From a virus: a stretch of 22,377 nt of DNA. Below, piece after piece: positions 3-20,800 of this stretch. The stretch's first letter is position 1. The number at the start of each line of letters is the position of its first letter. The position numbers were made by a program, and so were the translations under genes. Under the pieces are notes generated by a model. That model had not been told where the DNA came from. It saw only the letters and a list, made by a program, of their open reading frames with translations, and searched no databases. The stretch is from the IMG/VR virus record IMGVR_UViG_3300047562_003195, positions 1 through 22,377 of that record, one strand, 5' to 3'.

Positions 3-1187
3 CTTCAGGAAGGTCAATATATTGAAGTTTCATATTTAATATCTTCTGGTGAAGCTGCAAATGGTGTATTGCCAACTAACTTTAACGGGAGAATTGTTTC
101 TCAGAGAACAAATGCAGTCATATCATCGGAAATTTCACTTATAACTATAAACCAGTCTTCTTTCGGTGGAAGAGATATTGAATCTATCGATTCAATTAGA
201 AAATATGCACCTAGAGTATATGCATCACAAAATAGAGCAGTAACAGCATCAGATTATGAGGCATTATTGCCATCAATATACCCAGAGACTGAATCCGTAT
301 CTGTATTTGGTGGAGAAGAGCTTAATCCACCACAATATGGTAAGGTATTTTTGAGTATTAAACCAATTAATGGTGCATATCTTTCAAACCTTATCAAGAG
401 TAATATTAAATCAGAACTTAGAAAGTATAGTGTTGCTGGAATTGTTCCAGAAATTACTGATCTAAAGTATCTTTATATTGAACCAACTATATCCCTTTAT
501 TATAATACAAACTTCTCATCGTCACCAAATTCACTCAAAACTGAAGTTCTAAGTAATATCCAAGCATATGCACGTTCTTCGGAATTGAACAAATTTGGTG
601 CTAGATTTAAGTATAGTAAATTTGTAAAACTAATTGATGAAAGTAATGATGCGATTACTTCTAACATAACAAAAATAGTTATGAGAAGAGATCTTCGTCC
701 CATATTAAATAGTTTTGGTGAATATGAAATTTGTTATGGAAATAGATGTCATGTTCGCAGTGATCTTGGATATAATATAAAATCTTCAGGATTTACTATT
801 AGTGGAGTAACCGGAACGGTTTATCTTTCAGACATACCAAATCCTGGCAGAGAAACAGGAACAATCTTCTTGTTCCGTCTTTTGTCTGAGAGTCAACCAC
901 AAATTGTTAGAAGAAATGTTGGTACAATTGATTATGTTAAAGGTGAGATTAAATTATCCCCGATTAATATTACAAGTACAGTTGTAAATAGGGGAACACC
1001 TTTAATTGAATTGTCAGTTTCACCGTATTCAAATGACATAATTGGATTACAAGATCTTTATCTTCAATTGGATGTAAATAATACTGTAGTTGATGTGTAT
1101 CAAGATCAAATATCCTCAGGTTACAATATTTCTGGTTCAAACTATATTGTCACTTCAAGTTACACAAATGGAGCCCTGGTAAGATAA
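3..1187 (+). CDS. 6: Baseplate wedge protein gp6, C-terminal part (5' end outside window)
   Basis: The frame is open from base 3 with no stop, so this is the 3' part of a gene that begins upstream. The TTG at 69 is internal, because codons 3-68 (LQEGQYIEVSYLISSGEAAN) already read like gp6. The visible ~394 residues contain the Baseplate_J/gp6-type core: YAPRVYASQNRAVTASDYEA, then YPETESVSVFGGEELNPPQYG and a KVFLSIKP strand, followed by a helical/strand region ending near IVMRRDLRP. In T4, gp6 (660 aa) forms a dimeric ring that joins neighbouring wedges around the hub and contacts gp7, gp25 and gp53. The stop TAA at 1185-1187 lies 1 nt before the next ATG, suggesting translational coupling. 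The last ~130 residues (after about nt 790) are beta-rich and less recognisable. The family call is confident; the exact N-terminal boundary cannot be given. Confidence 0.88.
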   Translation, partial: LQEGQYIEVSYLISSGEAANGVLPTNFNGRIVSQRTNAVISSEISLITINQSSFGGRDIESIDSIRKYAPRVYASQNRAVTASDYEALLPSIYPETESVSVFGGEELNPPQYGKVFLSIKPINGAYLSNLIKSNIKSELRKYSVAGIVPEITDLKYLYIEPTISLYYNTNFSSSPNSLKTEVLSNIQAYARSSELNKFGARFKYSKFVKLIDESNDAITSNITKIVMRRDLRPILNSFGEYEICYGNRCHVRSDLGYNIKSSGFTISGVTGTVYLSDIPNPGRETGTIFLFRLLSESQPQIVRRNVGTIDYVKGEIKLSPINITSTVVNRGTPLIELSVSPYSNDIIGLQDLYLQLDVNNTVVDVYQDQISSGYNISGSNYIVTSSYTNGALVR

Positions 1188-1188
1188 A

Positions 1189-4100
1189 ATGATATCAAAC
1201 GATCAAAAAAGAGTAAAAATTCAAGACGTAGTTGAAAATCAATTACCATCTTTTGTAAGAGAAGATTTTCCTCTCATTTCAGAATTTTTAAAGCAGTATT
1301 ATCTTTCCCAGGAGTATCAAGGTGCTCCATCCGATTTATTGGCAAATATAGATTTGTATTTGAACTTAGATATATTATCAGATAATGGCAATTCTACAAC
1401 TACTTTAACGAATGATATATCAACTTTTGATAGTACAATATTTGTTAATAGGGATTTGATTTATTCTTTCCCAGATAATTATGGACTGATTCAAATAGGC
1501 AATGAAATCATATTATATACATCTAAGGGAAATAATTCGCTGGATGGGTGTGTTAGAGGTTTTAGTGGCATAACTTCTTACACAAATAAGGGAGAACTAG
1601 TTTTCTCAGAATCTGAAGCTTCAGAGCACTCGTCAGGTTCTCAAGTTAAAAACTTAAGTGGACTATTTTTAAATAAATTCCTAACTAAGATTAAAAATCA
1701 AATTTCTCCTGGATTTGAAAATAGAGACTTATATAATAATACAAATACTGGAGAAAGAGTTAATCAGTCATTATTTCTCAAACATGTTAAAGATTTCTAC
1801 AATTCAAAAGGAACAGAAAACTCTTTTGAAATTCTTTTTAGGTCATTATATAACGAAGACGTTTCTGTCATTATTCCAAGTAAGAATCTTTTCAGACCTT
1901 CAGATGCTCAATATATTGTCACTAAGGATATTGTAGTAGAAAGCATTCAAGGAAATCCATTAGACCTTTTAAATAGAACTCTATATCAAGATAGTTACCA
2001 ATCTTATGGTATTGGCAATGCATATGGTTCAATTACATCAATAGAAAAAATATCCGTTGGTCAAAAAGATTATTATAGATTGAGTGTTGATTTTGATTAC
2101 TCAAAAGACATTATCTTAGAAGGAAGTGTATATGGAGATTTTTCTGTACATCCAAAAACAAGAGTCATAACTCAAGTTTCTTCTAATTCTTCTTCAATTG
2201 ATGTTGATAGTACAATAGGATTTCCAAATTCTGGGAATCTTGTAGTTCCATATGAAAATGGAACTACTGGAATAGTTACATATGCAAGTAAGACATATAA
2301 CCAATTCTTAGGTATTATTGGCATTAGCACTCTCAGTACTATAGAACCAGAGCAAGAAGTTAGAATTGATGCATTTGCATATGGATATTCTGGTGAAGAT
2401 ATTGTTACAATGAGAGTGGGTTCAGTTCTGTCAAGTTTAAATTTGGCAGAAGATACTTACTATTACAATGATAATGATAGTGCGAAAATTAAATCTTTAG
2501 GTATAGAAAAGTCATCACCAAAGACAGATTGTTGGTTATATAACATCCAATCAAAATTTGATTTGCAACAAGCCCCAACATTAATAGATCCAACTGACTT
2601 TACTTATAGAGTTTCTACACACATATCAAACAATTTTAGAATTGGTGATAATGTTGTAATCAGAACTAATCTTGCGGAGACTTATAACTCTGTTGTTATT
2701 GATATCTTAACAGAAACAACATTTACGTTAAGTGGTCAGGGAAACATTGCTACCGCAAATAGATTTTTTACTGTAGAAAGGAAATTAAAAAAACCAAACC
2801 TGAATGCATCTCTACTTTCAAAATATCAAAATATTTTGAAGTATACAACGGATGTGCAAAACACATATGCAAAGTTTAATGATGATGTTCTAGTTGCCTC
2901 ATCATCAATTCCATCTACTAATGAATTAAATTTTTATGATAGAATTCTTTTATTGACGGGTCCTTATGCAGAAGGTACACAAATATTCAATTTCCCAAAC
3001 CATGGATACTACACGGGCGATAAAGTTTTCTATGAAGCAAATCCAAATTCATTTCCCTTTATTAGTGGCCTCACTTCGAGTTCTTATATAGTACAAAGGT
3101 TAGATGAAAATAGATTTAGATTAGCTACCAGTCTTGCAAACATTTATGCTAGTTATAGAGATACTAATGAAGAAGATAGACAAAGTAGATTTATCTCAGT
3201 ATCCTCTGGATCTTCCAATGCAGAATATTTTGGTAGGTTAATTCCAGCAGAGTTTGTAGGAGATTCGTTAGAGCATCAGAATATTCTCAAGGAAATAAAA
3301 AATCCAGTAAACGATGGCGGAGTATATCCAACTGAGCCTGGCACAACTGGTATTTTGATAAATGGTGTTGAAGTTCTTAATTACAAATCAAATGATTACA
3401 TATACCACGGAAAAATAAATTCGATACAAGTTGCATCTGAGGGTCACGATTATGATGTAATTAATCCACCAATAATTAACATTTCAGATGAAGTTGGTTC
3501 TGGTGCTACTGCAAAATGTGCAGTCTCTGGATCTTTGCAGAGAATTGATATAATTGACACAGGATTTGATTATACAGAAATTCCTACTATCAGTATCAAT
3601 GGTGGAAATGGAACTGGAGCAACTGCGGAGATTAACACATCGTTAGTTACTCATTCTGTGAATTTTTATTCTGATATCGCATCATCTTACATAAGTACTT
3701 CTTCAAACACCATTGGATTTTCAACCTATCATAAATTTAGAAATTATGAAAGGGCAATTTATAAAACTGATGGCCAAATTGGGGTAACAGGATTAACCAC
3801 AGATTCTCATTATTATGTTGGGTTAGTTGATGCAGTTACTCTCAAGTTATTTGAAACAGAATCCGATGCAATTTCCGGAATTAACACTGTAGGATTGAGC
3901 TCCTTTGGGCAAGGAGTTCATAGACTAGTTGCATTTAATAAGAAAAGAATAGTTTCTGGAGTCACTGTAACTAATTCTGGAAATAACTATGAGAATAAAG
4001 AGAAAATTGCACTTCCCGTAGGAATTAATACAGCACTTGATACAATCAATATTCAAAACCACACATATAATTCCAGAGATATTGTAACATATGCAACAAC

Positions 4101-7100
4101 TGGAGTATCAATAACAGGACTATCCACAACTTCCACATATATTGTAACTAAAGTAGATGACGATAATTTCAAATTATCTCAAATTGGTCTAGGCGAAACT
4201 GCAAAATATTTCTATTATGATACAAATCAATATATAAATCTACAGTCTATCGGCAGTGGAGTTCATACTTTCAATTATGAGCCTATTTCTATCAGTATTA
4301 ATGGACCTATTGGAGTAACGACATTTTCTGGTTCAGGTCAAAATTTTGACGCTGTTATTCAACCAGTTTTTAGGGGTGTAGTTTCTTCTGTACAAGTTAC
4401 AGAAACTGGAGTTGGATATGGAGTAACTGATATTTTTAATTTGGATAGGCAACCGGTTATTACCCTCTCAAGTGGTTCTGGTGCTGCTCTTTTGCCAATT
4501 GTCAGTGATGGAGAAATAATAGAAGTTTTAGTAATTTCTCCGGGTTCTGGTTATAATTCTCCTCCGGATTTAAACATTGTTGGTCAAGGTAGAAATGCAA
4601 AATTAACCCCAGTTATAACGAATGGGCAGATAGAAAGAGTTGTAGTTAATCGTTCTGGAAGTGGTTATTCAAACTCAACTGGCGTTAATGTAGTATCTGC
4701 TGGTTCTGAAGCGAAGTTAACTGCAAATATTCAAAGTTGGAATGTAAATCTCTTCACTAAAAAGTATAATAATATTTTGAATGATGGGGATGATGGATTC
4801 CTATATCCATCAAACAAGTTTGGAATAAAGTATACTCACATGTATGCTCCAAGAAAGTTAAGAATGAGCATATATGGAAAAGATTTTAATAATAATATTA
4901 GGTATGGTAATTTTGATCTTACTTTAAATGAATCTGGAGAAGAAATTAATTCTCAGTATCATTCGCCTATTATTGGATGGGCATATGATGGAAACCCAAT
5001 ATATGGTCCGTTTGGATTTTCAAGACCAGATGGTGGAAATGTGAGATTAATGAAATCTGGATATACTTCAGCGTCTTCATTAACAGATCCAAATAGACCT
5101 CCATTCGAAGAAGAATTTTTTATTGAAGATTTTATCTTTACCAATGATGGAGATTTGGATGAGCACAACGGAAGATTTTGTATAACTCCAGAATTTCCTC
5201 AGGGAACATATGCATATTTTTCAACCGTTAATGTTGGCCCTATAGAGAACAGTGGTCCATTTTTTAATTACAAAAAGCCAATCTTTCCTTACATAATTGG
5301 AAATAGTTTCAAATCAAGACCAAATGAATTCAATTTCAACGTTAATAACAATCAAGTAGATTATGCTCTAAATGCGTCTGATTGGTTTAGAAACACAAAA
5401 CCCTATAATTTAAATGAATCAAAAGCATATTATAATTATTTGTTCCAACCAAATAAACTCAAAGAAAGTACAGTTAATTTGAGGGCATATAAAGGGTCTT
5501 TAGATTCAGTAAACATAGTGTCTGGTGGAAGCGGATATAAAGTAGGTGATACTATTGTATTCGAACCAGCAAATAGAGTTGCTCTTGCAAGAGTTGAAAA
5601 AATTTCGGGGAAGGATGTAAATTATGTAAGTGCAGCATCAACTACTTTCTACAATGTAGAAATAACTAGAAGCAATCCCGGCGAATACATTGCATTTACG
5701 GAAGTTCCCCACAGTTTTATTAATGGTGATATTGTTTACGTATCTGGTCTAAGTACGTCAACTAGAAATTTACAAAGAAATTTTGTTGTTGGTATCTCAT
5801 CAGAAACATATGAATTAACTTCCGATGTTGATAATGATACTGTTACTGGAATTGTCACTTATTTCAATATAAGAGGCAATTTAAATTACCCATCATTGAG
5901 AGTTGATGATATTCTCCAAATAGAGTCTGAAAAAGTAAAGGTATTATCAATCGACAATCTGAATTCCAGAATAAGAGTATTAAGAGCTCAAGATGGAACT
6001 TCTGGAGTGGCACACACATCAACAACTACATTAACTGAGTTAACCAAAAAACTGACATTTGCATCTATACCAGAAAATATAGCTTTTAATCAAAATAAAA
6101 AAATATATTTTAATCCAGAAGAAACTGTAGGAGTTGGAACAACTTCTGGTGTTGGTGTTGGTGTCACTCTTTCCTTTGCAAATCCAGGAGCAGGAGCAAC
6201 AGAAGTCTTTATACCGACAAGATCTCTTTATATACCAAATCATGGGTTAAATACCGGCGAGAGAGTTGTCTATTCCTTTAACCAGGGAAGTTCAATTGCA
6301 ATTTCAGCCACTGGAATTGGAAGCACGACTTTAGATAATGATTCATCTCTGTATGTTGCCAAAATCAATAACGACATTATTGGATTATCTACAGTTAAAG
6401 TTGGATTAGGTTCCACAGGTACTTTTGTTGGTATAGCAAGCACAACATCCAATTTAGGATTACTCTATTTTACTGGTATTGGTACAGGAGTCTATCATAG
6501 TTTAGAAACAACAAGAGAATCTGTTATATCAGAGGTCTCCAAAAATTTAGTCTCAGTTTCTCTTGCGGCAACTCATGGACTTTCTCTTGGAGATAGATTT
6601 GAATTATCTTTGAAACCAGTAACTACATTTACAGTCGTAGTAAAATACAATGATTATAATAGAAGAATAGTTTTCAATCCAAAATCATTTGTTTCTGGTG
6701 ATGTTGATACCATTAAAAATACAATCTATATTCAAGATCATAATTATGCTGATGGTGATAAGGTAATTCACTCTTCAACTTCTCCATGTGGAGGACTGGT
6801 AGATGAGAAGATTTACTATGTTATTAGATATAGTGTAGATAAAATTAGATTATCGGAGACCTATAATGGTTCTATACAAACAAATAAAGAATTTGTAGAT
6901 ATATCATCAAGTTCTTTTGGCACAATATCACCAATTAACCCCAAGATTACTGGGTATAAAAATTCTAAGATTAGATTTGATACATCAGATAGTTCTCTAT
7001 CTTACATCTCCGGAACAACTTATTCCGCATTTAAACTGAACTTCTATACCGATTCGAGTTTCACTACAGTATTTGAAAGTAGTAAGAGCACAGACACCTT

Positions 7101-10100
7101 CGAAGTTACTCGTTTTGGAAATATTGGATTTAATGGCTCTTATGTAGATTTGACAATTAGCGATTTTCTTCCTGAGGAATTATATTATAGATTCATTCCT
7201 GTAAATGGTGCTTCTTTGGTAAAATCTCAGATAGTTGTAGATGAAGAAGTATTCAACAATAATAAGATTGTTATCAAAAATAGTGAGTATCATGGAAATC
7301 ATGTAGTAGCAGGTATCGGTACAACAACATTCAATTTTAATTTAAATTATTATCCAGAAAAATCTTCATACAACACTCAAGAAGCATCTATTGAATATAA
7401 AACAACTTCTATAACAGATTCTGGTAGTATTGCTGAAATTAATATAATTGATTCTGGTTTTGGATATGACTACGTGCCTGGTGTTTCTACAATAAGAACT
7501 GCAAGTGGTAATTCTGCAATATTAGAATCGCAAAGCAGAAATATAGGATCAATTTCTTCATATGCTATAGAAAATATTGGATTTGACTACCCATCTGACA
7601 ATACTTTAAGACCAATATGCAATTTGCCAGAGATACTGAAAATAGAACCACTATCTTCATTTGAAGAAATTGGAATTACCTCCTCCGGAAGAAATTACTT
7701 AACTGCACCAAATTTGGTAGTAATTGATGGATTTACAAACAGAGTTATTAGAGATGTAGATTTAAGATATAGACTTGGTGACAACAGAGTGACTATTCTA
7801 ACTAATACATATGGAATTTATAATACTACACCGAGAATAATTCCAACAAATAATACAAATGGTGTTGGCATTAGCTCAATATTGTATAATTCATCAAGTC
7901 AAAATGTAACAGTATATTTAAATGCCGGATTCAGTGATTCTTTCCCATTCTCAGTTGGTGATAGAGTTTTAATTGAAAATGTCAGTGTTGGTGTTGCAAG
8001 CACTGGATATGGATATAACTCATCAAACTATGAATATACATTATTCACATTAACAGGTGTTCATCCAGGTTTGGGTGGAAACGTTGGAGTTGTAACATAT
8101 AGTTTATCTGACTATCTGCCAGTAGGAAGAACTCCGGGAAGTTATGATAGTGTAAATTCTTCTGGAAGAATAATTCCAGAAAAAGACTTCCCAATTTTTA
8201 GAACTACTTTAAGAAAAAATAATTTTATCATAGGAGAAACTGTAAAATCTTCTTCTAATCAAGGTGTTGTTGAAAGTTGGAATAATGATATTGATATACT
8301 AAAAGTTTCTACAGAAAAAGATTTTTCAATTGGAGAAGTTGTTGTTGGTCAAACATCAAGAACTCAAGGATTAGTATCCAGAAAGTATGATTTCAATGCA
8401 GATTTCTCTACATCATCTTCCTCAATCGTCAAAAAAGGGTGGGAATCTGATGCAGGTTTCCTTAATAGCAACACTGAAAGAATATCTGATAACTTCTATT
8501 ATCAAAAATTCTCATACTCATTAAAATCTAGAGTTCCTTTACAGGATTGGAATGATCCGGTAAGTTCACTTAATCATACTGCAGGATATTTAAAATTCTC
8601 AGATTTAAATATAGAATCTGAGAATACTTTATTGCCAATTTTTGGTGATAGGTACAATAATCTAGGTTCTACTGATGTTATAGTTGATCTCTATAGAGAA
8701 AGTGATTTGGATTGTTACTCTTCATATGATTATGCAACCGAAAATTCTTTAAATTTAAATTCTAGACAAGCATCTGATGAAATCTACTTCAGGAACTCTA
8801 TTCTAACGGATTACTTTGAATCAATAGGAAATAGAGTTCTTAGAATTGATGATGTTAGTGGAGAATTTAACAGCAATGAAAGAGTTACAAGATATTCTAT
8901 TGTTGATAGATTTTCTCTAGAATCAACATATAAAAAATATTTCATACTGGCACAGGATACAGTATTTTCTGACGAAAGGCAAATTTCTATAGTATCTCTT
9001 CTCCAAGATGGTTCACTCTCTTATATCAGTCAATATGGTAGAGTTGAAAGTCAATTAGATTTGGGATATTATGATTTTTCTATTTTTGGATCTGAAGGAA
9101 ATCTGAGATTCTACCCAACAAAATATCAGGCAAATAATTATAATGTAACGAATGTTTCTTTTGATATCAATGGTATTGCTGGTGTCGGAACAACTTCTCT
9201 CGGAGACGTTGTTAATGTAAGTACAGCAAATACATCTGTTTCTATTGGCACCACAACGACAATTGTTTCTATTGCTGACACCTATAGATCCTCTAAGGTT
9301 CTGGTTCAGGTAAAAACAACTGATGATCAATATCAAGTCAATGAGATTAATTTGCTCCACAATGGTTCTGAAGTATATGCCTTAGACTATGGCCAAATTA
9401 ATAGCACACCTGATTTAAATTTATCTGGACTTGGCACATACAATGCATATATTTCTGGAAATAATGTTATCTTAGACTTTATTCCATCTACTAGTGTTGC
9501 TTCTACAACATCTGCAATTATTGTTTCTATCGCAAGTACTCTATCCACTGGAATTGGTACAGAAACTTTATCTTTTGGGGCGAACAATCTATCTACACTA
9601 GAATCAAACTATGTTTCTATTTCATCATCACCAACACCAACAAATAATATAATTGCAGAATACTCAAACGAAAATTCTGGTGCATATTTAATCGTAAGTA
9701 TTGAAGATACAACCAATAATAATTATGAAATGTTGGAATTGATTGTAGTGAATGATTCCACAAACACATATTTAACCCAATATGGTGCTTTGGCTTCCAA
9801 CTCTGGAATAGGAACTTTTGGCTCATCTTTAGTTGGAAGTGACGTACAAATTTACTTTACTCCACTCCCAGATATTGATGTTCAAATAAGATCATTTGAA
9901 TTAGATTTGAGAATATCGGGAACCAATGGTTCATCCACTGAGCAAAGTATAATAGACCTAGAATCTGGTGAAATAAGATCAAATTATGGTTATTACTTTG
10001 GTACATTGACTGATGTTAAGAGACAATTTGAATTAACCCATAATAATAGAGAAATATTTGAGAGATTATTTGATGCATCTGACTCAGAAATTATCAGTAT

Positions 10101-10503
10101 TGCAGACGATACCATTACAATTCCTGAGCATTTCTTTGTAACTGGAGAGGAGGTTGTTTATGTTTGGCCTGGAGCAGGAACAACGGCATCAATTGGGATT
10201 GGAACAACAACTTTTGCAGGAATAGGTCAGACGGATAAACTACCTTCTTCTGTATTTGTTATAAAAGTAGATGATACAAAGATCAAACTTGCAAGAAGCG
10301 CGGAGGATGCTTTAAATGGTGTTCCAATTTCTGTTGATTTATTATCAGTTGGTGTAGGAACTGGTCACACAATAACTTCAATAAATCAAAATTCAAAGTG
10401 TATATTGGCAATTGATAATGTAATTCAATCTCCAATAGTTTCAACTGCAACAACAACGTTATTATCTTCGTATCTAGAAATTTCAAATTTTGTTCTAGAA
10501 TGA
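1189..10503 (+). CDS. Giant gp7-like baseplate wedge protein, N-terminal 3104 residues (frame broken at its 3' end)
   Basis: Starts at ATG 1189, 1 nt after gp6, with no clear Shine-Dalgarno. Residues ~10-60 (QLPSFVREDFPLISEFLKQY) and ~197-240 (FYNSKGTENS, LFRSLYNEDV, LFRPSD) resemble a block near the C-terminus of T4 gp7 (FYSTKGIEAS, LFKVLYNEEV, from memory). With its position between gp6 and gp8 this supports a gp7 role: the wedge initiator that binds gp10, gp8 and gp6. T4 gp7 is 1032 aa, so this protein is far larger. The rest is beta-rich: H-x-TGD modules (residues ~602-650, 955-1030, 1506-1548, 1682-1774, 1848-1914, 2978-3065), GxGY repeats (~743-820, 1063-1184), a YHYH-like domain (~1211-1346) and GDEI-type modules (~75-140, 337-400, 1572-1616). 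It has no signal peptide or membrane segment, and only about eight cysteines. It ends at TGA 10501-10503 inside a module that continues in the next frame, so the true product probably runs on to 13285. It could also be read as a generic virion structural protein; the gp7 call rests on the N-terminus and synteny. Confidence 0.75.
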   Translation: MISNDQKRVKIQDVVENQLPSFVREDFPLISEFLKQYYLSQEYQGAPSDLLANIDLYLNLDILSDNGNSTTTLTNDISTFDSTIFVNRDLIYSFPDNYGLIQIGNEIILYTSKGNNSLDGCVRGFSGITSYTNKGELVFSESEASEHSSGSQVKNLSGLFLNKFLTKIKNQISPGFENRDLYNNTNTGERVNQSLFLKHVKDFYNSKGTENSFEILFRSLYNEDVSVIIPSKNLFRPSDAQYIVTKDIVVESIQGNPLDLLNRTLYQDSYQSYGIGNAYGSITSIEKISVGQKDYYRLSVDFDYSKDIILEGSVYGDFSVHPKTRVITQVSSNSSSIDVDSTIGFPNSGNLVVPYENGTTGIVTYASKTYNQFLGIIGISTLSTIEPEQEVRIDAFAYGYSGEDIVTMRVGSVLSSLNLAEDTYYYNDNDSAKIKSLGIEKSSPKTDCWLYNIQSKFDLQQAPTLIDPTDFTYRVSTHISNNFRIGDNVVIRTNLAETYNSVVIDILTETTFTLSGQGNIATANRFFTVERKLKKPNLNASLLSKYQNILKYTTDVQNTYAKFNDDVLVASSSIPSTNELNFYDRILLLTGPYAEGTQIFNFPNHGYYTGDKVFYEANPNSFPFISGLTSSSYIVQRLDENRFRLATSLANIYASYRDTNEEDRQSRFISVSSGSSNAEYFGRLIPAEFVGDSLEHQNILKEIKNPVNDGGVYPTEPGTTGILINGVEVLNYKSNDYIYHGKINSIQVASEGHDYDVINPPIINISDEVGSGATAKCAVSGSLQRIDIIDTGFDYTEIPTISINGGNGTGATAEINTSLVTHSVNFYSDIASSYISTSSNTIGFSTYHKFRNYERAIYKTDGQIGVTGLTTDSHYYVGLVDAVTLKLFETESDAISGINTVGLSSFGQGVHRLVAFNKKRIVSGVTVTNSGNNYENKEKIALPVGINTALDTINIQNHTYNSRDIVTYATTGVSITGLSTTSTYIVTKVDDDNFKLSQIGLGETAKYFYYDTNQYINLQSIGSGVHTFNYEPISISINGPIGVTTFSGSGQNFDAVIQPVFRGVVSSVQVTETGVGYGVTDIFNLDRQPVITLSSGSGAALLPIVSDGEIIEVLVISPGSGYNSPPDLNIVGQGRNAKLTPVITNGQIERVVVNRSGSGYSNSTGVNVVSAGSEAKLTANIQSWNVNLFTKKYNNILNDGDDGFLYPSNKFGIKYTHMYAPRKLRMSIYGKDFNNNIRYGNFDLTLNESGEEINSQYHSPIIGWAYDGNPIYGPFGFSRPDGGNVRLMKSGYTSASSLTDPNRPPFEEEFFIEDFIFTNDGDLDEHNGRFCITPEFPQGTYAYFSTVNVGPIENSGPFFNYKKPIFPYIIGNSFKSRPNEFNFNVNNNQVDYALNASDWFRNTKPYNLNESKAYYNYLFQPNKLKESTVNLRAYKGSLDSVNIVSGGSGYKVGDTIVFEPANRVALARVEKISGKDVNYVSAASTTFYNVEITRSNPGEYIAFTEVPHSFINGDIVYVSGLSTSTRNLQRNFVVGISSETYELTSDVDNDTVTGIVTYFNIRGNLNYPSLRVDDILQIESEKVKVLSIDNLNSRIRVLRAQDGTSGVAHTSTTTLTELTKKLTFASIPENIAFNQNKKIYFNPEETVGVGTTSGVGVGVTLSFANPGAGATEVFIPTRSLYIPNHGLNTGERVVYSFNQGSSIAISATGIGSTTLDNDSSLYVAKINNDIIGLSTVKVGLGSTGTFVGIASTTSNLGLLYFTGIGTGVYHSLETTRESVISEVSKNLVSVSLAATHGLSLGDRFELSLKPVTTFTVVVKYNDYNRRIVFNPKSFVSGDVDTIKNTIYIQDHNYADGDKVIHSSTSPCGGLVDEKIYYVIRYSVDKIRLSETYNGSIQTNKEFVDISSSSFGTISPINPKITGYKNSKIRFDTSDSSLSYISGTTYSAFKLNFYTDSSFTTVFESSKSTDTFEVTRFGNIGFNGSYVDLTISDFLPEELYYRFIPVNGASLVKSQIVVDEEVFNNNKIVIKNSEYHGNHVVAGIGTTTFNFNLNYYPEKSSYNTQEASIEYKTTSITDSGSIAEINIIDSGFGYDYVPGVSTIRTASGNSAILESQSRNIGSISSYAIENIGFDYPSDNTLRPICNLPEILKIEPLSSFEEIGITSSGRNYLTAPNLVVIDGFTNRVIRDVDLRYRLGDNRVTILTNTYGIYNTTPRIIPTNNTNGVGISSILYNSSSQNVTVYLNAGFSDSFPFSVGDRVLIENVSVGVASTGYGYNSSNYEYTLFTLTGVHPGLGGNVGVVTYSLSDYLPVGRTPGSYDSVNSSGRIIPEKDFPIFRTTLRKNNFIIGETVKSSSNQGVVESWNNDIDILKVSTEKDFSIGEVVVGQTSRTQGLVSRKYDFNADFSTSSSSIVKKGWESDAGFLNSNTERISDNFYYQKFSYSLKSRVPLQDWNDPVSSLNHTAGYLKFSDLNIESENTLLPIFGDRYNNLGSTDVIVDLYRESDLDCYSSYDYATENSLNLNSRQASDEIYFRNSILTDYFESIGNRVLRIDDVSGEFNSNERVTRYSIVDRFSLESTYKKYFILAQDTVFSDERQISIVSLLQDGSLSYISQYGRVESQLDLGYYDFSIFGSEGNLRFYPTKYQANNYNVTNVSFDINGIAGVGTTSLGDVVNVSTANTSVSIGTTTTIVSIADTYRSSKVLVQVKTTDDQYQVNEINLLHNGSEVYALDYGQINSTPDLNLSGLGTYNAYISGNNVILDFIPSTSVASTTSAIIVSIASTLSTGIGTETLSFGANNLSTLESNYVSISSSPTPTNNIIAEYSNENSGAYLIVSIEDTTNNNYEMLELIVVNDSTNTYLTQYGALASNSGIGTFGSSLVGSDVQIYFTPLPDIDVQIRSFELDLRISGTNGSSTEQSIIDLESGEIRSNYGYYFGTLTDVKRQFELTHNNREIFERLFDASDSEIISIADDTITIPEHFFVTGEEVVYVWPGAGTTASIGIGTTTFAGIGQTDKLPSSVFVIKVDDTKIKLARSAEDALNGVPISVDLLSVGVGTGHTITSINQNSKCILAIDNVIQSPIVSTATTTLLSSYLEISNFVLE
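1411..1608 (+). repeat. GDEI-type beta module, copy 1 of 5
   Basis: Encodes residues ~75-140 of the giant protein: a STIFV strand, then GLIQIGNEIILYTS, then CVRGFSG and a final G-x-L-V strand. Related copies lie at 2197-2390 (IGFPNSGNLVVPYENG, YASKTYNQFLG), 5902-6036 (LRVDDILQIESEKVKV, VLRAQDGTSG), across the frame break at 10474-10668 (DLIKIDNEIMKI, VDRPWMGTG, HSSGSLI) and in the DUF4815 protein at 21103-21320 (YVLIGDEIIRYTS, IPIGSLVY-like PIGSLVYKYE). The pattern is G-x-[IL]-x-[IV]-x-x-E-I-x-x-[YI], then an arginine-containing turn, then [HN]-x-x-G-x-L-[VI]. Such modules are common in phage fibre and baseplate proteins. Boundaries are approximate. Confidence 0.6.
2992..3132 (+). repeat. H-x-TGD beta module, representative copy (family of about seven in the giant protein)
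   Basis: Pattern: I/F-x-N-H-x-x-x-T-G-D-x-V-x-Y, then about 10-25 residues, G-L-[ST]-x-x-x-x-Y-x-V, then D-x-x-x-[FI]-[KR]-L. This copy reads FPNHGYYTGDKVFYE, ISGLTSSSYIV, DENRFRLATS. Other copies are at about 4051-4272 (QNHTYNSRDIVTY), 5704-5832 (VPHSFINGDIVYV), 6232-6510 (IPNHGLNTGERVVY), 6730-6930 (IQDHNYADGDKVIH) and 10120-10383 (IPEHFFVTGEEVVY). A degenerate copy at 3727-3930 lacks the TGD. A shorter relative occurs in the DUF4815 protein at 21001-21060 (NHQNHGMYFDDNIT). The conserved His and Asp positions could be structural or bind an ion; that is speculation. Confidence 0.62.
4375..4740 (+). repeat. GxGY beta-repeat array in the giant gp7-like protein
   Basis: Three consecutive units encode residues ~1063-1184. 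Each has a short hydrophobic strand, then G-x-G-Y, then a P- or N-rich strand and a second strand starting A-x-L: VQVTETGVGYGVT, VLVISPGSGYNSPPDLNIV, VVVNRSGSGYSNSTGVNVV. Weaker units precede it at about 3415-3660 (IINISDEVGSGATAK, IDIIDTGFDYTEIPTISI) and follow it at about 5500-5610 (VNIVSGGSGYKVGDTIVF) and 7426-7730 (INIIDSGFGYDYVPG). The predicted architecture is repetitive beta-structure forming an elongated rod; this is inference from the periodicity. Confidence 0.65.
4819..5226 (+). other. YHYH-like domain inside the giant gp7-like protein
   Basis: Encodes about residues 1211-1346 of the giant protein. Signature elements in order are HSPIIGWAYDGNPIYGPFGF (from 4960), then DLDEHNGRFCITPEFPQG, then TYAYFST. 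These match the layout of the YHYH domain family (GWAYDGxPIYGPYGY, LDExNGR, then YHYH), but the family-naming tetrad is replaced here by YAYF. The family is found in secreted and phage structural proteins, and its molecular role is not established to my knowledge. It sits between a GxGY array and a further linker, so it looks like an inserted globular module on the virion surface. The domain call is fairly sure; the function is unknown. Confidence 0.72.
10497..10503 (+). other. Frame-change site: the giant gene passes from frame 1 to frame 2
   Basis: Upstream frame: CTA GAA TGA (10495-10503). Downstream frame: TAG (10496-10498), then AAT GAT ATT AAT TCT TTC TTT GGT. Only a shift between these two stops keeps both halves open. 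Skipping one base here (for example T10501) gives FVLE-DINSFFGNDLIKIDNE, which reads naturally for a virion-protein module. The downstream half has no credible own start: no Shine-Dalgarno, and the first in-frame ATG (10553) lies inside the conserved EIMKI motif. A TCTAGAA direct repeat (10473-10479 and 10494-10500, 21 nt apart) sits at the break. The cause could be a sequencing or assembly indel, a real mutation, or a +1 recoding event. GAA-to-AAU is a poor +1 slip and I see no prfB-like stimulator, so an indel is favoured. Confidence 0.8.
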
Positions 10504-10528
10504 TATTAATTCTTTCTTTGGTAATGAT

Positions 10529-13285
10529 TTGATTAAAATTGATAATGAAATTATGAAGATAAAAACTGTTGGATTTGGATCAACTAATAGAGTTTTGGTT
10601 GATAGACCTTGGATGGGTACAGGCATTTCAACACACTCAAGTGGATCCCTTATTACCAAAATTGAAGGTCAATATAACATAATTGATAACACGGTTCACT
10701 TTGTATCAGCACCATATGGAAATATACCAATAGGAAGTACAACAAATCCACCAGATGAAAGAGATTGGACTGGAATTACAACTAGTTCAAAATTCCAAGG
10801 AAGAGTATTTTTGAGAAGTGGTCAACCAAATACGTCTAGTGAGACCTACTCCAAAAATTATGTATTTGATGATATTTCAGAGCAATTTAATGCCATTACC
10901 AAAGATTTTATTCTAAAAGTTGACAATCAAAACATCACAGGCATATCTGATAATAATGCGGTCATACTAATTAATAGTATTTTCCAGAGTCCTTCTGCTT
11001 CCTTTGTTGTGAGGCAAGATTATGATTTACAAGAAACATCAGGAATTACAAGCATAAGATTTACAGGTGCGGCTTCTTCTGTTGCATATGACCCAAATAA
11101 TGCATCTATACCTGTTGGTGGTATAATAGTTTCAGTTGCTTCGACTGAAGGATTTGGTTATCAACCTCTTGTTGCCGCAGGTGGAACTGCCATAGTCTCG
11201 GTAGCGGGAACGATATCTTCAATTAGTATTGGTAACAGTGGTTCTGGTTATAGAGTCGGAATTCAAACTATAGTAAATGTTGGAGTATATACTTCTTCAA
11301 CAGGAACTCCAAATATTGAGTTTATTGGAACTGCAGCGGTTAGCAATGGAAACATTGTTAGTGTTGCTATTACAAATCCTGGAACGGGTTATACATCAAC
11401 AAATCCACCAAATGTTGTATTTGATAGTCCATTAAATTATTCAAACATACCATTGATTTATAGTTCATCTTCATCCGGAGTTGGAACAGAAGCAACAGTT
11501 GACGTTATTGTTGGTCAGGGTTCAAGTGTTATTGATTTTGAACTCAAATATACTGGATACAATTATCAAGTTGGTGACATACTAACTTTTGCTGCTGGAG
11601 GAACTTCAGGAATACCAACAGATACAACAAAACCATTTACAGAATTCCAGATTACTGTTGATACTACAGAAAGTGACAAATTCTCAGGATGGCATTTGGG
11701 TCAGCTAGAAGTTTTTGATAGTATTGAATCCCTATTTGATGGGCAGAGAAGAATCTTCCCTCTTTCCAAAGATGGAAGTCCAATATCAATTAGAGTTTCT
11801 CCTGGATCAAATATAGACATTCAATCCACACTATTAGTATTCTTAAATGATATTTTACAAGTGCCTGGCGAAGGATATACTTACAGAGGTGGTAGTGTTA
11901 TAAGTTTCCCTGAAGCTCCAAAGGGCCCATCTTTAGAATCGGGCGATCCAACATCTTCAGATAGATGTACGATATTGTTCTACAAGGGAAGTGGTGATAT
12001 TGATGTTATCTTTAGAGACGTTTTAGAAACTGTTAAAGTTGGCGACACTCTGACAATTAACGATGATAATTTTGTGTGCTCAAATATGATTCAGCAAGAT
12101 GAAAGAATTGTTACAGAAATTTTATCATCAGACAGTGTTGAGACAAATACTTATTTTGGTCCAGGAATAAATGGAAACCCAGATTGTTATAGAACTGTTG
12201 ACTGGTGTAAGCAAAAGAATGACTTAGTTATTGATGGAAGTATTGTAAGTAAGAGTAGAACATATTATGAACCTATAATTAATCCGGTTTCTTACTTAAT
12301 TCAACCTGTTGGGGTAGGATCTACTATAGTGTACGTTGATAGTATAAGACCATTCTTCAATCAGAATAATGAAAATAGCACTTTACAAAATAGCGTTACT
12401 TTCATTCCACAAGAACAAATTGTTGGAGCATCTGCAACCTCATTAGTGTCTGTAGCCGGAACAGTTTCTTCTATTAGCATAACAAATGGTGGAAGTGGTT
12501 ATACTTCAGTTCCAAATGTATCAATTCAAGTTGGTTTTGGTACTACTCAACCAGCAACAGCAGTGGCATCAGTCACTGCAGGCATAGTTACCACTATTTC
12601 AGTAACAGGTCCTGGAACCGGATATACTTCAACGAATCCACCAGTTGTTCTAATAGAACCCCCATCAATTTCAGTTGAAACCAATTCTGTTTCTCAATAT
12701 TTTGGTGACTATGGTAAGGTTGTGGGATTTGGATTTACCACTTCTTCTGGAATTTCTACAATTACTTTCGACCTTTGGATTGAGGAAGATTCATTTGTAA
12801 GAGATTCTGCATTGGTTGGAACAGCAGTTACTATTAGTGGAATTTCTACGGGCGACTATATTTTAATTAATGATTCTAATATCGGATTGGCAAATACATC
12901 CATAACTTCACTAAGAATTGATTCTTCTTCGATTGGAATTGGTTCTCAGTTTATAAGTAATGTATATCAAGTTATTACATCAACAGAAATTCAGAAATAT
13001 ATTATTGGCATTGGCACTACTTATGTCAATAGAATTGAGGTAAAGGTTAGTGGTATGGGAACTGATACATTGGATTCTTTTGATTCTTCGACAAGAGATT
13101 ATATTTACTCTGGTGGAATAACCACAGCAACTCATTTTGGTTCTTATAGTTGGGGAAAAATACATTTAAATTCTAGAACTGGGTTGGGTTCTTTTGGTTT
13201 CTATGGAGATGGTGGCGTTGGTGGAATAGTTACTTCTACTCTTGTAAGAAGAACAAATTCATTAAAATATACAGGTTATCTCTAA
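10529..13285 (+). CDS. C-terminal part (918 residues) of the giant gp7-like baseplate protein, separated by a frame break
   Basis: The frame is open from 10499. A caller would start at TTG 10529 or ATG 10553, but neither has a ribosome binding site, and coding sense begins at the break (D-I-N-S-F-F-G-N-D from 10502). I read it as the continuation of 1189-10503, giving about 4,031 residues if one base is skipped. Visible order, in residues from TTG: rest of a GDEI module with RPWMGTGISTHSSGSL (~1-50), a fibre-like N-x-x-x-Q-x-P module (~144-163), a GxGY pair (~219-301), a second N-x-x-x-Q-x-P module (LNDILQVPGEGY, ~435-464), a module with three cysteines (VCSN, DCYRT, DWCKQ, ~517-563) followed by a conserved-looking YEPIINPVSYLI segment, a second GxGY pair nearly identical to the first (~635-712), and a beta-rich tail ending KYTGYL at TAA 13283-13285. 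All are structural-type motifs; I see no catalytic site. As an independent protein it is unlikely. Confidence 0.6.
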   Translation: MIKIDNEIMKIKTVGFGSTNRVLVDRPWMGTGISTHSSGSLITKIEGQYNIIDNTVHFVSAPYGNIPIGSTTNPPDERDWTGITTSSKFQGRVFLRSGQPNTSSETYSKNYVFDDISEQFNAITKDFILKVDNQNITGISDNNAVILINSIFQSPSASFVVRQDYDLQETSGITSIRFTGAASSVAYDPNNASIPVGGIIVSVASTEGFGYQPLVAAGGTAIVSVAGTISSISIGNSGSGYRVGIQTIVNVGVYTSSTGTPNIEFIGTAAVSNGNIVSVAITNPGTGYTSTNPPNVVFDSPLNYSNIPLIYSSSSSGVGTEATVDVIVGQGSSVIDFELKYTGYNYQVGDILTFAAGGTSGIPTDTTKPFTEFQITVDTTESDKFSGWHLGQLEVFDSIESLFDGQRRIFPLSKDGSPISIRVSPGSNIDIQSTLLVFLNDILQVPGEGYTYRGGSVISFPEAPKGPSLESGDPTSSDRCTILFYKGSGDIDVIFRDVLETVKVGDTLTINDDNFVCSNMIQQDERIVTEILSSDSVETNTYFGPGINGNPDCYRTVDWCKQKNDLVIDGSIVSKSRTYYEPIINPVSYLIQPVGVGSTIVYVDSIRPFFNQNNENSTLQNSVTFIPQEQIVGASATSLVSVAGTVSSISITNGGSGYTSVPNVSIQVGFGTTQPATAVASVTAGIVTTISVTGPGTGYTSTNPPVVLIEPPSISVETNSVSQYFGDYGKVVGFGFTTSSGISTITFDLWIEEDSFVRDSALVGTAVTISGISTGDYILINDSNIGLANTSITSLRIDSSSIGIGSQFISNVYQVITSTEIQKYIIGIGTTYVNRIEVKVSGMGTDTLDSFDSSTRDYIYSGGITTATHFGSYSWGKIHLNSRTGLGSFGFYGDGGVGGIVTSTLVRRTNSLKYTGYL
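11183..11431 (+). repeat. GxGY repeat pair, first of two near-duplicate copies
   Basis: Encodes SVAGTISSISI, then NSGSGYRVG, then NPGTGYTSTNPPNVVF. A second copy with the same order lies at 12431-12664. The 11-residue stretch PGTGYTSTNPP is identical in both, and SVAGT[IV]SSISI differs at one position. Codon wobble differences between the copies (for example ccaggaacgggt versus cctggaaccgga-type changes) show the duplication is not brand new or has been under purifying selection. Confidence 0.7.
12431..12664 (+). repeat. GxGY repeat pair, second near-duplicate copy
   Basis: Encodes SVAGTVSSISI, then NGGSGYTSVPNVSI, then GPGTGYTSTNPPVVLI. It is the partner of the copy at 11183-11431, about 1.25 kb upstream in the same frame. 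The DNA between the copies encodes the fibre-like and three-cysteine modules, so the copies could recombine and delete or duplicate that segment. Confidence 0.7.
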
Positions 13286-13317: not shown

Positions 13318-14877
13318 ATGTCTGCAATTATAACTGACCAACTTCGTATATTAAATGCAAAGAATTTTGTTGCTGGGGTATCTACAGCAAATAATTCTTA
13401 TTATACTTTCGTCGGTTTACCAAATCCTAATGATCTTTTATCTACTTGGGATACAACCCCATTAGATCCCCGTGATAGTTTTAATGATGAAAATAATTAT
13501 TGGGATACTATGATTGCATTGAAGAAAATTAGATCGACTGATGTTAAGCAGGTTGTTAGAAAAATACAATGGAGACTCGGCGATACTTTTGATATGTATC
13601 GCCACGATATTACTGCAGACAATCCCACTAACTCATCAAATAGTCTATCGTTATATGAATCAAATTTCTATGTATTAAATTCAGATTATAGAGTTTACAT
13701 CTGCTTACAAAATGGAACAGATCCTGATAACCCAAATGGTAGAACTTCTTTAGATGAACCAACATTTACTGATTTAGAACCAAAAGCCGCAGGATCGAGT
13801 GGAGATGGTTATATTTGGAAATATCTTTATACAATAAAACCAAGTGATGTAGTTAAATTTGATTCAACCAATTTCATGCCAGTTCCATCAAACTGGGAAA
13901 CTAATTCAGAAAATTCTTCGATAAGAAATAATGCCTCCACTAGTGGCCAAATAAAAGTAGTTTTAGTAAAGAATAGAGGAGAATCTGTTGGGCCTGCTAA
14001 TAGAGTTTATACAAGGGTTCCTATAAAAGGTGACGGTAATGGGGCAGAAGCGACAGTTGTTGTAAATGGTAGTTCCAGGATTGAATCGGTTACAGTATCA
14101 AATGGTGGATCTGGATATACATATGGAACTCTAGATTTGGTAGGTGGTGGGGTTCCCACTGGAACAACTTCACCCGAGTTTGAAGTTATTATTCCACCTC
14201 AGGGAGGTCATGGTTATGACATTTACAGAGAACTTGGTGCAAGAAATGTTCTAATCTACTCTAGAATAGAAAACGATGAAGAAAATCCAGATTTTATTAC
14301 AGGAAATCAATTTGCAAGATTTGGAATAATAGAAAATCCAAAAGCATATAACTCTACAGAAAATTTGGCTTTAGATAAAGCAAGTGCAGTTTATGCTTTG
14401 AAACTTACTGGTGCTGGTTATAGTTCAGCATCTTTCCCAGAAGATAGTTTTATAACACAAACAGTCGGTCTTGGTTCAACGGCTGTTGGTAGAGTTATTT
14501 CGTACAACCAAACAACTGGTGTGTTGAAGTACTGGCAAGATAGAACAACTTCAGGATTTAATACAAGTGGTACTGCAAATACATCACCAATCTATGGATT
14601 CTCTGCAAATAGATTTACTTCCTCACCAGATACTTTGAATGGTGGTTCTATCAATATTGTTGGAGTTGCAGCTACATTATCAATACATACATCTTTTACA
14701 GGAGTATCAACTGAGGTACTAAATAGAACATACTATCTTGGTCAATCATTTACGCAGGGTGTTTCTCAACCAGAAGTTAAAAAGTATTCTGGAAATATTA
14801 TTTACGTAGATAATAGACCTTCAATATTGAGATCAACCAACCAAAAAGAAGACATTAAAGTCATATTGCAGTTCTAA
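13318..14877 (+). CDS. 8: Baseplate wedge protein gp8
   Basis: A 519-residue protein starting at ATG 13318, 32 nt after the giant gene. Similarity to T4 gp8 (334 aa) can be seen by eye, with the T4 sequence recalled from memory: N-terminal NSYYTFVGLP, DSFNDENNYWDTMIALKKI and VVRKIQWRLGDTFD; central DGYIWKYLYTIKPSD (T4 DGYVWEYLFEIPPD); and C-terminal IIYVDNRPSILRSTNQKEDI ending in VILQF (T4 MIYMENRPPII, with TEEI and LFTF at the end). In T4, gp8 is a dimer that binds gp7 and gp10 within the wedge. The extra length comes mainly from residues ~242-280, a GxGY repeat unit (VTVSNGGSGYTYGTLDLV), and from ~365-470, a Gly/Ser/Thr-rich stretch. A late promoter precedes it. TAA at 14875-14877 is 6 nt before the next start. 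This is the best supported gene in the window. Confidence 0.93.
   Translation: MSAIITDQLRILNAKNFVAGVSTANNSYYTFVGLPNPNDLLSTWDTTPLDPRDSFNDENNYWDTMIALKKIRSTDVKQVVRKIQWRLGDTFDMYRHDITADNPTNSSNSLSLYESNFYVLNSDYRVYICLQNGTDPDNPNGRTSLDEPTFTDLEPKAAGSSGDGYIWKYLYTIKPSDVVKFDSTNFMPVPSNWETNSENSSIRNNASTSGQIKVVLVKNRGESVGPANRVYTRVPIKGDGNGAEATVVVNGSSRIESVTVSNGGSGYTYGTLDLVGGGVPTGTTSPEFEVIIPPQGGHGYDIYRELGARNVLIYSRIENDEENPDFITGNQFARFGIIENPKAYNSTENLALDKASAVYALKLTGAGYSSASFPEDSFITQTVGLGSTAVGRVISYNQTTGVLKYWQDRTTSGFNTSGTANTSPIYGFSANRFTSSPDTLNGGSINIVGVAATLSIHTSFTGVSTEVLNRTYYLGQSFTQGVSQPEVKKYSGNIIYVDNRPSILRSTNQKEDIKVILQF
14041..14154 (+). repeat. GxGY repeat unit inserted in gp8
   Basis: Encodes gp8 residues ~242-279, including AEATVVVNG, RIESVTVSNGGSGYTYGTL and DLVGGG. 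It is closely similar to units of the giant protein (VSSISITNGGSGYTSVPNVS at about 12454). T4 gp8 has no such segment as far as I recall, so it is likely a surface-loop insertion shared with the neighbouring wedge protein. Confidence 0.62.
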
Positions 14878-14883
14878 AGAATT

Positions 14884-17800
14884 ATGTCACAGGAAACTAA
14901 TCTCAACGTATCACCCTATTTTGATGATTTTGATGCAAATAATGACTATTATAAAGTACTATTTAAACCAGGTTATCCAGTTCAAGCTAGAGAACTGACA
15001 ACATTACAGTCAGTTCTACAAAATCAAATTGAAAAGACTGGACAAAGATTATTTAAAGAAGGCGATAAGGTAATTCCTGGAAATATTTCATATAACCGCC
15101 TATATTATGCCGTAGAAATTAACAACACATATTCTGGAGTTGCAGTTGCAGAGTATCTGTCTCAATTGGTTGGAGTCAAAATTACAGGTCAAACTTCTGG
15201 AGTTACTGCTGTTGTAAAAGAAGTAATTACCCAGGAAGAGTCTGATAGAGATAATGCAACACTTTATGTTAGTTACTTGTCGTCAAATTCTGCAGACTTA
15301 CAATCTCATTTCTTTCTAGACAATGAATTACTAATTACTGAACAGAATTTAACATCACAATCAACGACAATAACATCTGGCGACTTTTTTGCTTCAACAG
15401 TTGCAAATAATGCAACTTCGACCGGATCCTCATTTTCAATCTCAAGTGGAGTTTATTTTGTAAGGGGATATTTTGTAAATGTACCCGAAGAGTCCATCAT
15501 TCTAGACCAGTATTCAAATACACCAAGTTATAGGGTTGGTTTGCTTGTCTCGGAAGAGGTTGTAAACTCATATACAGATCCAACTCTTAACGATAATTCA
15601 AATGGGTTTAATAACTACGCAGCACCTGGGGCAGATAGACTAAGGATTAGTGTTTCTCTCTATAAGAAAGCTTTAAATGATTTTGATGATAATAACTTTA
15701 TTGAACTAGCCACGATTACAAATGGAGTTATTAGAACCAAAAATAAGAGTTCAGAATCTTTCGAGTTAGAAGAATCTTTAGCAAAAAGAACTTACTCAGA
15801 GACTGGTGACTATTACATAAGTCCAATAGATGTAAGTGTAAAAGAATCTCTATCGGATAATATTGGGAATAGAGGTATATACAATTCAACCCAAGTTACT
15901 CAATCTGGTTCTTCTCCAGCAGATAATTTGGCTTTATACCAAATATCTCCAGGAAAAGCTTTTGTTAAAGGTTATGAAGTAGAAACTACCAAAACAGTAT
16001 TTTTAGACGCTCCAAAACCAAGAACTACTAAAACATTATCAAATCAATCAATAAACTATTATACAGGACCAACATTTAGGATTAATAGAGTTAGTGGAAA
16101 TCCGGTGATTGGAATTGGAAATACTTATATTTTAAGTTTAAGAGATACTAGAGTTGGATCAGATTCTTTTTCTGCTGCTGGAAAGGAAATTGGAGTTGCT
16201 AGAGTTTATGACTTTAGACTAGATTCTGAAGCATATGATGCATCAAATACAAACTTAAATGATTGGAATTTATCTCTTTATGATATTCAAACTACAACTG
16301 AAATAACATTAAATGAACCAGTAACATTATCAACTCCGTCTTTTATAAAAGGAAAATATAGTGGTGCTACTGCTTTTCTAAAAGATTCAGTCTCTTCTGG
16401 CGCAGGAATTACAGTTTATCAGAAGTCTGGTCAGTTTTTGGAAAATGAACCATTCATAATTAATGGAATTGAAAATGGAAGAATAGCAATAGCTATTACT
16501 TCATATGACATTTCAGATATAAAGTCTGCATATGGTATTGTCGGTGCTGCAAATACATTTACAGCAGATATAATCCAAACAGAAAAGTCTTTTATTGGCG
16601 TTGCGACAATTAGTGCGGCTAGCGGTGGTATATCTACAGTTACAAGTACAAATTCAAGATTTATAAATCAAGTAAAAGTAGGAAATATTTTACAATATAG
16701 CAGCCAGTCACTTAATTTACCAACTTTTGTTAAAGTTGTTAGTATTTCTTCAACAACAGTTGGTGTAAGTTCAGTTCAAAGTGTTCCGGGAGTATGTTCT
16801 GGCGATTTGCCAGTATCAACATTAAATGTCTCAGATTTGAGACTATTAACAACCAATTTATCTTCATCTGAAGATGACACTTTATATACACCACTACCGA
16901 AGAAGAATATTTCTTCAATAAATTTACAGAACTCCACTGTAACTATTAGAAAAACATATTCATTTACAATTTCTGGAAATTCTTCTGGAACTTTGTATTC
17001 CGGTACAAATGAAACTTTCTTACCCTTTAGTGAAAAGAGATATTCTCTAATTAGGGTGGATGGAACAACAGAAGTTTTAACATCAGATCGCCTCAACTTT
17101 AATTCAGATTTTACTCAACTTCAAATTAACAACTTGAGCCAGAATGGTGATGCAGTATTAGTAGCAACTTTATCAAAAGCAAATCCAACATCAAAAGTAA
17201 AATTAAAGAATAGAGTCAATAGTGTCATAGTAGATAAGTCAAAATATCAAGGATCTGGTATTGGTTCAACCACACTCAATGATGGACTTCAATATGGAAA
17301 TTATCCATATGGAACAAGAGTTCAAGATGAAGTAATCTCATTGAATGTTCCGGATATTATAGAAGTGCATGGAATATATGAATTTGCAGGTTCTTCAAAT
17401 TTAAATAGTGATCCATCAGCACCAAATATCTTACTTTCTTCTATTAACAGTCTAACAAATACAACCTCAGATATAATCTTAGGCGAAAAGTTTATTGGTA
17501 GAACAAGTGGAGCTGCTGCAATATGCGCAGAAATTCCCGATTCTACAAATATCAAATTTGTTATGAAAAATCAAAATAATTTTGTAGAGGGCGAAGTAAT
17601 TTTCTTCGAAGAATCTAACGTAACTGCAACAATTTCAGAAATAAGTTCAACAAGTTTTGATGTTTCTTATAATTTTGAATATAAGAATGGTCAAAAGTCA
17701 AACTTATATGATTATGGAACTATTATAAGAAAATTAAATGTTGCAGAACCAAATAGAAAATTAAAAGTCTATTTCTCAAATGGTTATTATGAGTCTGGAG

Positions 17801-20800
17801 ATTCCGGAGATTTTACCACGATAGATTCTTATAATGGTTTTGATTATTCGAGAGAGATTCAATCTATTGATGGCATCAGAACAACAGATATTATTGATAT
17901 TAGACCAAGAGTTTCAAATTATAGTGTAACGTCAGGTGCATCAAGATCTCCATTAGAATTCTACGGAAGAGTTTTTAATGGTTCAGGAAACTCTGCTGCT
18001 AATATTTTGGCATCAGAGGAAGAAACCACACTTGGATTCTCATTCTATCTTGGAAGAATCGATAGAATTTATCTCTCCAAGGATGGGAAATACCAAATAA
18101 AATATGGAGTCCCATCAGAAAAGCCAGAAATTCCATCTTCTATTGATGACTTAATGGAAATTGCGATGGTCAATTTACCACCTTACTTGTATAGGGTATC
18201 TGATACTTCAGTATCTTTCTCTGTAAACAAGAGATTTAGATTTAACGACGTTAAAAATTTAGAGACAAGAATAAAGAATTTAGAATATTACACCGCATTA
18301 TCATTGCTAGAATCTAACACTTATAACTTGTTCTTACCAGATTCTACTGGACTTGATAGATTTAAGTCGGGTTTCTTTGTAGATAATTTTACATCACTCC
18401 AATCCCAAGAAGATATTGTTGAGTTTAAAAATAGTTTAGATTTAGATAATAAAGAGCTTAGACCAAAACACTATACAACTTCATTAGACTTGGTTGCAGG
18501 TCCCGTAGAAGGTATTGGTGCAAATTCGGACTATGGATTCACAAACCCAGAGGGAAGCAATATTCGCAGAACAGGAGACTTAATAACTCTAAGTTATTCG
18601 GATGTTGAGTGGATATCACAAAATTCTGCATCTAGAAGCGAAGTAGTCTCACCATATCCAGTGAATTTCTGGCAGGGAAGTGTTAAACTTTCACCAGCTT
18701 CTGATGTTTGGGCAGATACTATAAAAGTTGAGACAAGAATAATTTCTTCGGATGAAAAGTATACAGAAACTTTAAGAATCTCTTCAAGAACTCATAATGT
18801 AGATTCTCAGTCTGGATTTGTTCCAAATATATGGAATTCCTGGCAAACACACTGGGTCGGTGAAGAATATTATTCTAGAAGAGAATTTATTGATAAGACA
18901 TCACTAACAGCGAGTGATTGGAGAAGAAGTGGTTCTAGACAAATATTTGATAATGATATTACAAGTACATTCTCCGATGATGTAATTAGTGTACCTTCAA
19001 GTGGAAATAAGTCTTCATCAAATCTTATTAATGTTGATAGCAGAGAAACTGTAACAATAGGCGACAAAACAGTAGGTAGAGATCTTATTTCATTCATTAG
19101 GTCAAGAAATGTCAGTTTCAATGGAGTTGGATTAAAACCACTAACTAGAATTTATGCATTCTTTGATAGTGTTGATGTTACAAAATACTGTGTTCCCAAA
19201 TTGCTTGAAATTAGTATGGTTTCTGGAACTTTCCAGTCAGGAGAAACCGTAATTGGAAAGACTAACGTTGTAGGAAATTCTCCTTCAACCAATTCAGATT
19301 CACTACCATCAATCAAATTTAGAGTTGCACAATCAAACCATAAGTCTGGTCCATTCAATTCACCAACTTCCACTTTTGCAACAAACCCATATACCAATGC
19401 AACCCTCCAGACCACATACTCATCAACATCAACCATATTGAATGTAGATACTCTTTCTCTATCGAGACAGACTGAAGATTTTTATGGTCATGTTTCAACT
19501 GGAATGGTCTTGGTTGGTCAGTCAAGTGGGGCACAAGCAACAGTTACAAACGTTCGTTTAGTTTCTGATGATTCTTCATCTTTACTTGGAAGTTTCTTCA
19601 TACCAAATCCAAATATAGTAGGTAATCCTCGTTTTGAAACTGGTAGTAAGACATTTGTTCTTACAAGTAGTAGCACAAACGATTTAGAATCGCCAACAAC
19701 AATAGCTGAAGAAAGATTTACGTCTTCTGGTATATTGGAAACTGAAAGCAATAGCATACTTTCAACGAGAGAACCTAGACTACAAAATCGTAAGAATTTC
19801 AAACCAACATTTACAAGTAGAGTACTTGATACACAGGTTGCAAATGGTTCTCCATTATCACCTAAAGAACAATCGGAGTTTATTGGTTGGAATAATCCAA
19901 TTTCTCAATCATTTGTTGTTGATGATGAGCCAGGAATTTTTATAACAAAATGCGATCTTTTCTTTGGTTCAAAAGATGACATGAATATTCCTATTTTGGT
20001 CCAAATACGATCAATGTCAAATGGAATACCAACTCAGTATGTTTTACCATTTTCAGAAGTATCACTTCTACCAAATCAAATCCAAACATCTAACGATGGT
20101 TCTGTAGCAACGACAGTTGTATTTGATTCTCCAGTTTATCTAGAAGGTGGTTCAGAATATTCCATCTGCGTATCTTCTCTGTCAAGTAAGTATGAGATTT
20201 ATGTTTCTAGATCTAGCGAAAAAGATTTAATATCTCAAACATTAATATCACCACATTCATACATTGGAAATTTATTTAAGTCTCAAAATGTTTCCACTTG
20301 GGAATCTAGTAAGTTAGAATCTTTAAAATTCACTCTATACAGAGCTAGTTTTGTATCATCTGGTAATGTTGAGTTTTATAATCCAATTTTATCTGTTGGA
20401 AATGGGCAGATTCCAAAACTTCTACCAAATCCACTCAATTTTACTTCCAAAAAAATTAGAATTGGTATTGGTTCAACATTACAAGACACTAATTTAACAT
20501 TCGGTAACACTGTTCTTCAGCAGACAAACACTGGTTCTGGAAGATATGTTGGAAATGCAGGAATAGCCACAGGCACTCTGGGAATTATTAATGCCGGTAT
20601 TGGTTATACCCCCTCAGCAGGTTCTCTAACATTCTCAGATGTTGCATTGACTGCAGTAACTGGTAATGGAATAAATGCAACTGCAAACATCACAATTTCC
20701 AATGGCGTTGCAATAGCAGCAACAATTTCAAATTCTGGAAATGGATATCAAGTAGGTGATGTTTTAGGTATTACATCAATTGGAACTTTAAATGTTGGAA

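Follow-up and report, generated by a model that had tools for sequence, protein, structure and literature searches.

gp7 genes of T4-like cyanophages

In phage T4, gp7 is the essential wedge initiator of the baseplate. The Synechococcus phages S-SM2, SynMITS9220M01 and Bellamy encode gp7 as one CDS of 12,204–12,471 nt, giving proteins of about 4,000–4,150 aa, and the gene stands in the order gp6, gp7, gp8 and a gene for a VrlC-like protein. S-SRM01 also has one CDS for gp7 (3895 aa). A single uninterrupted reading frame is usual, but not strictly defining, for gp7 proteins of the family PHROG 2885.

Two cases depart from this picture. In the deposited record of Synechococcus phage S-SKS1 (HQ633071, L082) gp7 is spread over four successive frames, the breaks of which adjoin A runs at approximately 1130-1199, 5920-5935 and 9243-9261 and are likely homopolymer sequencing errors. 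Furthermore, in a clade of three diverged contigs (IMG/VR 3300025771_000171, 3300025815_000297 and 3300019937_000001; L086, L088 and L089, 91–92% identical) gp7 consists of 2531 codons ending with TAA, and an ATG 7 nt later opens a second gene of 1424 codons. Together the two genes span gp7 without loss, with the junction at approximately residue 2600 of Bellamy gp7. Since this split is common to diverged contigs it is regarded as real, and the clade therefore demonstrates that a two-piece gp7 can exist and what form a natural split takes. A literature search on split cyanophage gp7 returned nothing specific.

A baseplate cluster with gp7 in two frames

The window, i.e., the whole analyzed stretch of 22,377 nt that constitutes one virus record, is a baseplate cluster of a T4-like cyanophage containing the end of gp6, gp7, gp8 and a large VrlC-like structural protein (Table 1). 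The gp7 position is flanked by gp6 and gp8, as expected, and the gene order is likewise that of S-SM2, SynMITS9220M01 and Bellamy. However, whereas these isolates have one CDS, the window lacks a single uninterrupted gp7 frame and carries two overlapping ones instead. The two gp7 pieces were searched separately throughout and the sequence was left unrepaired. Both matched PHROG 2885, a baseplate wedge family of 4179 positions, in successive parts. On the basis of these matches and of the single CDS in the isolates, the two frames are two halves of one giant gp7 of approximately 4,030 residues in total, which upholds the proposal of the initial annotation that one giant baseplate protein is broken here. 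The length is similar to that in the three isolates, to which the C-terminal quarter is ~48–51% identical. Moreover, residues 179-270 of gp7 match residues 712-792 of a solved T4-type gp7 (9f4a) with an E-value of 1e-4, albeit over this short stretch only.

The second frame is preceded immediately by a TAG at 10496-10498, and the first one terminates with the TGA at 10501-10503, so that the frame change is confined to the seven nucleotides to which it had been assigned before. The first potential starts in the second frame are a TTG at 10529 and an ATG at 10553. Elsewhere in the 22.4 kb no frame break is present, and the contig does not appear to be generally error-prone. As a separate observation, gp7 harbors a YHYH domain (PF14240, E 6e-21) at window positions 4738-5235 (residues 1184-1349), which is unusual for a baseplate protein.

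Table 1. Features of the window and of the two-gene gp7 loci used for comparison.
Feature	Position	Strand	Evidence
gp6-position gene (baseplate wedge), C-terminal part, cut by the contig end	3..1187	+	gene order as in S-SM2, SynMITS9220M01, Bellamy
gp7, N-terminal three quarters, 3104 codons, ATG 1189 to TGA 10501-10503	1189..10503	+	PHROG 2885 positions 7-3083
Conserved six-strand beta-domain, interrupted after the second strand	10426..10668	+	relatives' alignments, AlphaFold2, hhalign
Frame-change interval; record ~5 nt shorter here than relatives	10497..10503	+	TAG and TGA positions, 64 vs. 69 nt
gp7, C-terminal quarter, open in frame 2	10499..13285	+	PHROG 2885 positions 3545-4176 of 4179 (better of two stretches)
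gp8, baseplate wedge protein, intact	13318..14877	+	Pfam Phage-Gp8
VrlC-like large structural protein, DUF4815, PHROG 358, intact; GDEI-type module at 21103-21320	14884..22341	+	
Natural gp7 split junction (two-gene clade)	L089:9660-9800; L086:7130-7270; L088:7840-7980		

The site in related phages

All 80 nearest IMG/VR relatives have one open frame across the break site. The site is also read through by 14 further, more distant contigs and by four loci of the two-gene clade, so that the 98 IMG/VR contigs covering it all do so in a single frame, and the frame is equally uninterrupted in the isolates S-SM2, SynMITS9220M01, Bellamy and S-SRM01. Neither a stop codon nor a new gene start was found at this site in any relative examined. 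The distance between the motifs QSPIV and I(T/N)SFF is 23 residues (69 nt) in 80 of 80 relatives, but 64 nt in the window, which indicates a shortage of about 5 nt in the record and not a simple 1-nt change. A 1- or 2-nt indel had been expected initially and does not fit this shortfall: in more distant relatives the segment comprises 22, 23 or 26 residues, and in none the 21 required for a pure 1-nt gain. A net loss of 2 nt combined with a natural difference of one residue is possible, but less simple than a loss of ~5 nt.

The frame-2 residues ahead of any possible start (10505-10552) retain their conservation with the relatives, and as the codons between break and possible starts are still conserved, the lesion is recent and arose after these phages had diverged. 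A search of IMG/VR for exact matches to the DNA surrounding the break, also with a gapped pattern permitting either form, had no hits and thereby gave no second contig from the same population, although near-identical records may have been kept out of the searches; queries with the upstream part of gp7 and with a further downstream part yielded no near relative either. A strain chimera at the break is not indicated, as upstream and downstream identities lie within the spread for pairs of relatives.

The break interrupts a predicted beta-domain

For domain modeling, alignments of 32 relatives' sequences and a tighter one of 49 were used. The AlphaFold2 model of the domain from the tight alignment (90 residues, pLDDT 80.3, pTM 0.70) is compact with six strands, and a longer model agrees locally (pLDDT 73–85). 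In these models strands 2 and 3 of the small domain lie on either side of the break, and hence a split at this site would cut a folded domain, with the second piece beginning inside it. In a fold search the domain was small and beta-barrel-like, with generic matches to phage tail proteins and F1-ATPase, none of them with E ≤ 0.001.

It had also been suggested that the break lies inside a conserved GDEI-type module. This holds at the profile level, since an alignment of relatives across the break matches the N-terminal module of gp7 in hhalign with a probability of 77 and an E-value of 2e-5 (five column-shuffled controls: 0.1–0.4). In pairwise comparison the signal is weak, and the window's own downstream piece has no significant similarity to the copies at 1411-1608 (61 of 1000 shuffles score as well) and 21103-21320 (211 of 1000). 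These two copies, one in gp7 and one in the VrlC-like protein, match each other, with 0 of 1000 shuffles being as good.

Origin of the break

Taken together, we assign a probability of roughly 0.88 to the reading that the window contains a single gp7, with a frame interrupted only in this record, through a private net loss of ~5 nt, and that neither a programmed frameshift nor an evolved split is present. On the sequence exactly as deposited, translation would stop at the TGA inside the beta-domain and the product would lack its last quarter. The cause is most likely technical, an error of assembly or sequencing in this metagenomic contig, which we consider probable. Private gp7 breaks of other kinds exist in three of 80 relatives, the open gp7 frames of which amount to 722 kb, and a single private break in one contig is therefore unremarkable. 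L041 has a private TGA nonsense codon in gp7 (4607-4609) at a position occupied by Cys in the gp7 of the window; L072 carries a private TAA (1799-1801) in place of a sense codon present in L068 and L073; and L056 shows a loss of ~227 nt with a frame change (5483-5487) relative to L079. However, a loss of ~5 nt is not a homopolymer-length error, which counts against a technical cause, and the break does not coincide with a homopolymer at all. As the event is moreover discrete and the 22.4 kb are otherwise clean, some weight has to be given to a recent real deletion in the phage or in a dominant population variant, by which gp7 would be truncated and the genome defective or complemented in co-infection; the C-terminal quarter would then go untranslated or be translated separately. 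We regard this as unlikely, because a defective allele of an essential gene should rarely dominate an assembly and the site is undisturbed in all relatives examined.

An established two-gene arrangement and recoding are both unlikely given that no shared stop or start, no slippery sequence and no usable repeat is present at the break. A functional two-gene gp7 would demand that translation restarts at the TTG or the ATG after the TGA and that both products enter the baseplate. The two-gene clade provides a precedent, as gp7 lies in two successive frames there as well, and a reinitiation distance of 25–50 nt is possible. Yet the natural split is located ~500 residues further upstream with a clean ATG following the TAA, and it is common to three diverged contigs, whereas the break in the window is confined to this record and separates strands 2 and 3 of a domain; no relative is split at this site. 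Neither of the two marks of a natural split, occurrence in independent contigs and a start codon beside the stop, is found here. Furthermore, the ATG at 10553 is the conserved Met of an EIMKI motif (47 of 49 relatives), so that its presence is uninformative about initiation. The downstream half had initially been described as lacking a usable start, but the strength of a Shine-Dalgarno sequence cannot decide this, since the intact gp8 and the next gene downstream are without one as well. Overall, we consider two functional gp7 genes improbable. It is very improbable that the shortfall of 5 nt is genuine and fixed, with two polypeptides complementing each other across the split beta-domain in the baseplate, which would mean that the giant gp7 has undergone fission a second time, independently. 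The frames of S-SKS1 resemble the situation in the window in that gp7 extends over several frames of a deposited record, but their breaks are at different positions.

Programmed +1 frameshifting of the prfB type at GAA-UGA, raised in the initial annotation as one way to join both frames, would agree with the stop codon occupying the A site and with the net +1 relation of the frames. Against it, relatives are free of stops and frame changes at this position, all 80 being in one frame, and, judging from the codons, the tRNA-Glu in the P site would form a poor pairing with AAU in the +1 frame. The recoded product would in addition still be two residue positions shorter than in all 80 close relatives, with the missing positions falling in a stretch that has Gly in 46 of 49 relatives. 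Thus, we consider recoding extremely improbable. Slippage on a TCTAGAA direct repeat, the other mechanism proposed, was rejected, because a spacing of 21 nt between the repeats would preserve the reading frame, and TCTAGAA is common, with nine occurrences in the window. No tandem repeat was found at the break site.

Significance

With private gp7 breaks in ~4% of related contigs as a yardstick, the break in the window is ordinary and of little biological weight. Where a giant phage gene from a metagenome shows a broken frame, this should be treated as noise unless the break is common to relatives. It is the two-gene clade, more than the break in the window, that is informative about how oversized cyanophage baseplate proteins can divide.
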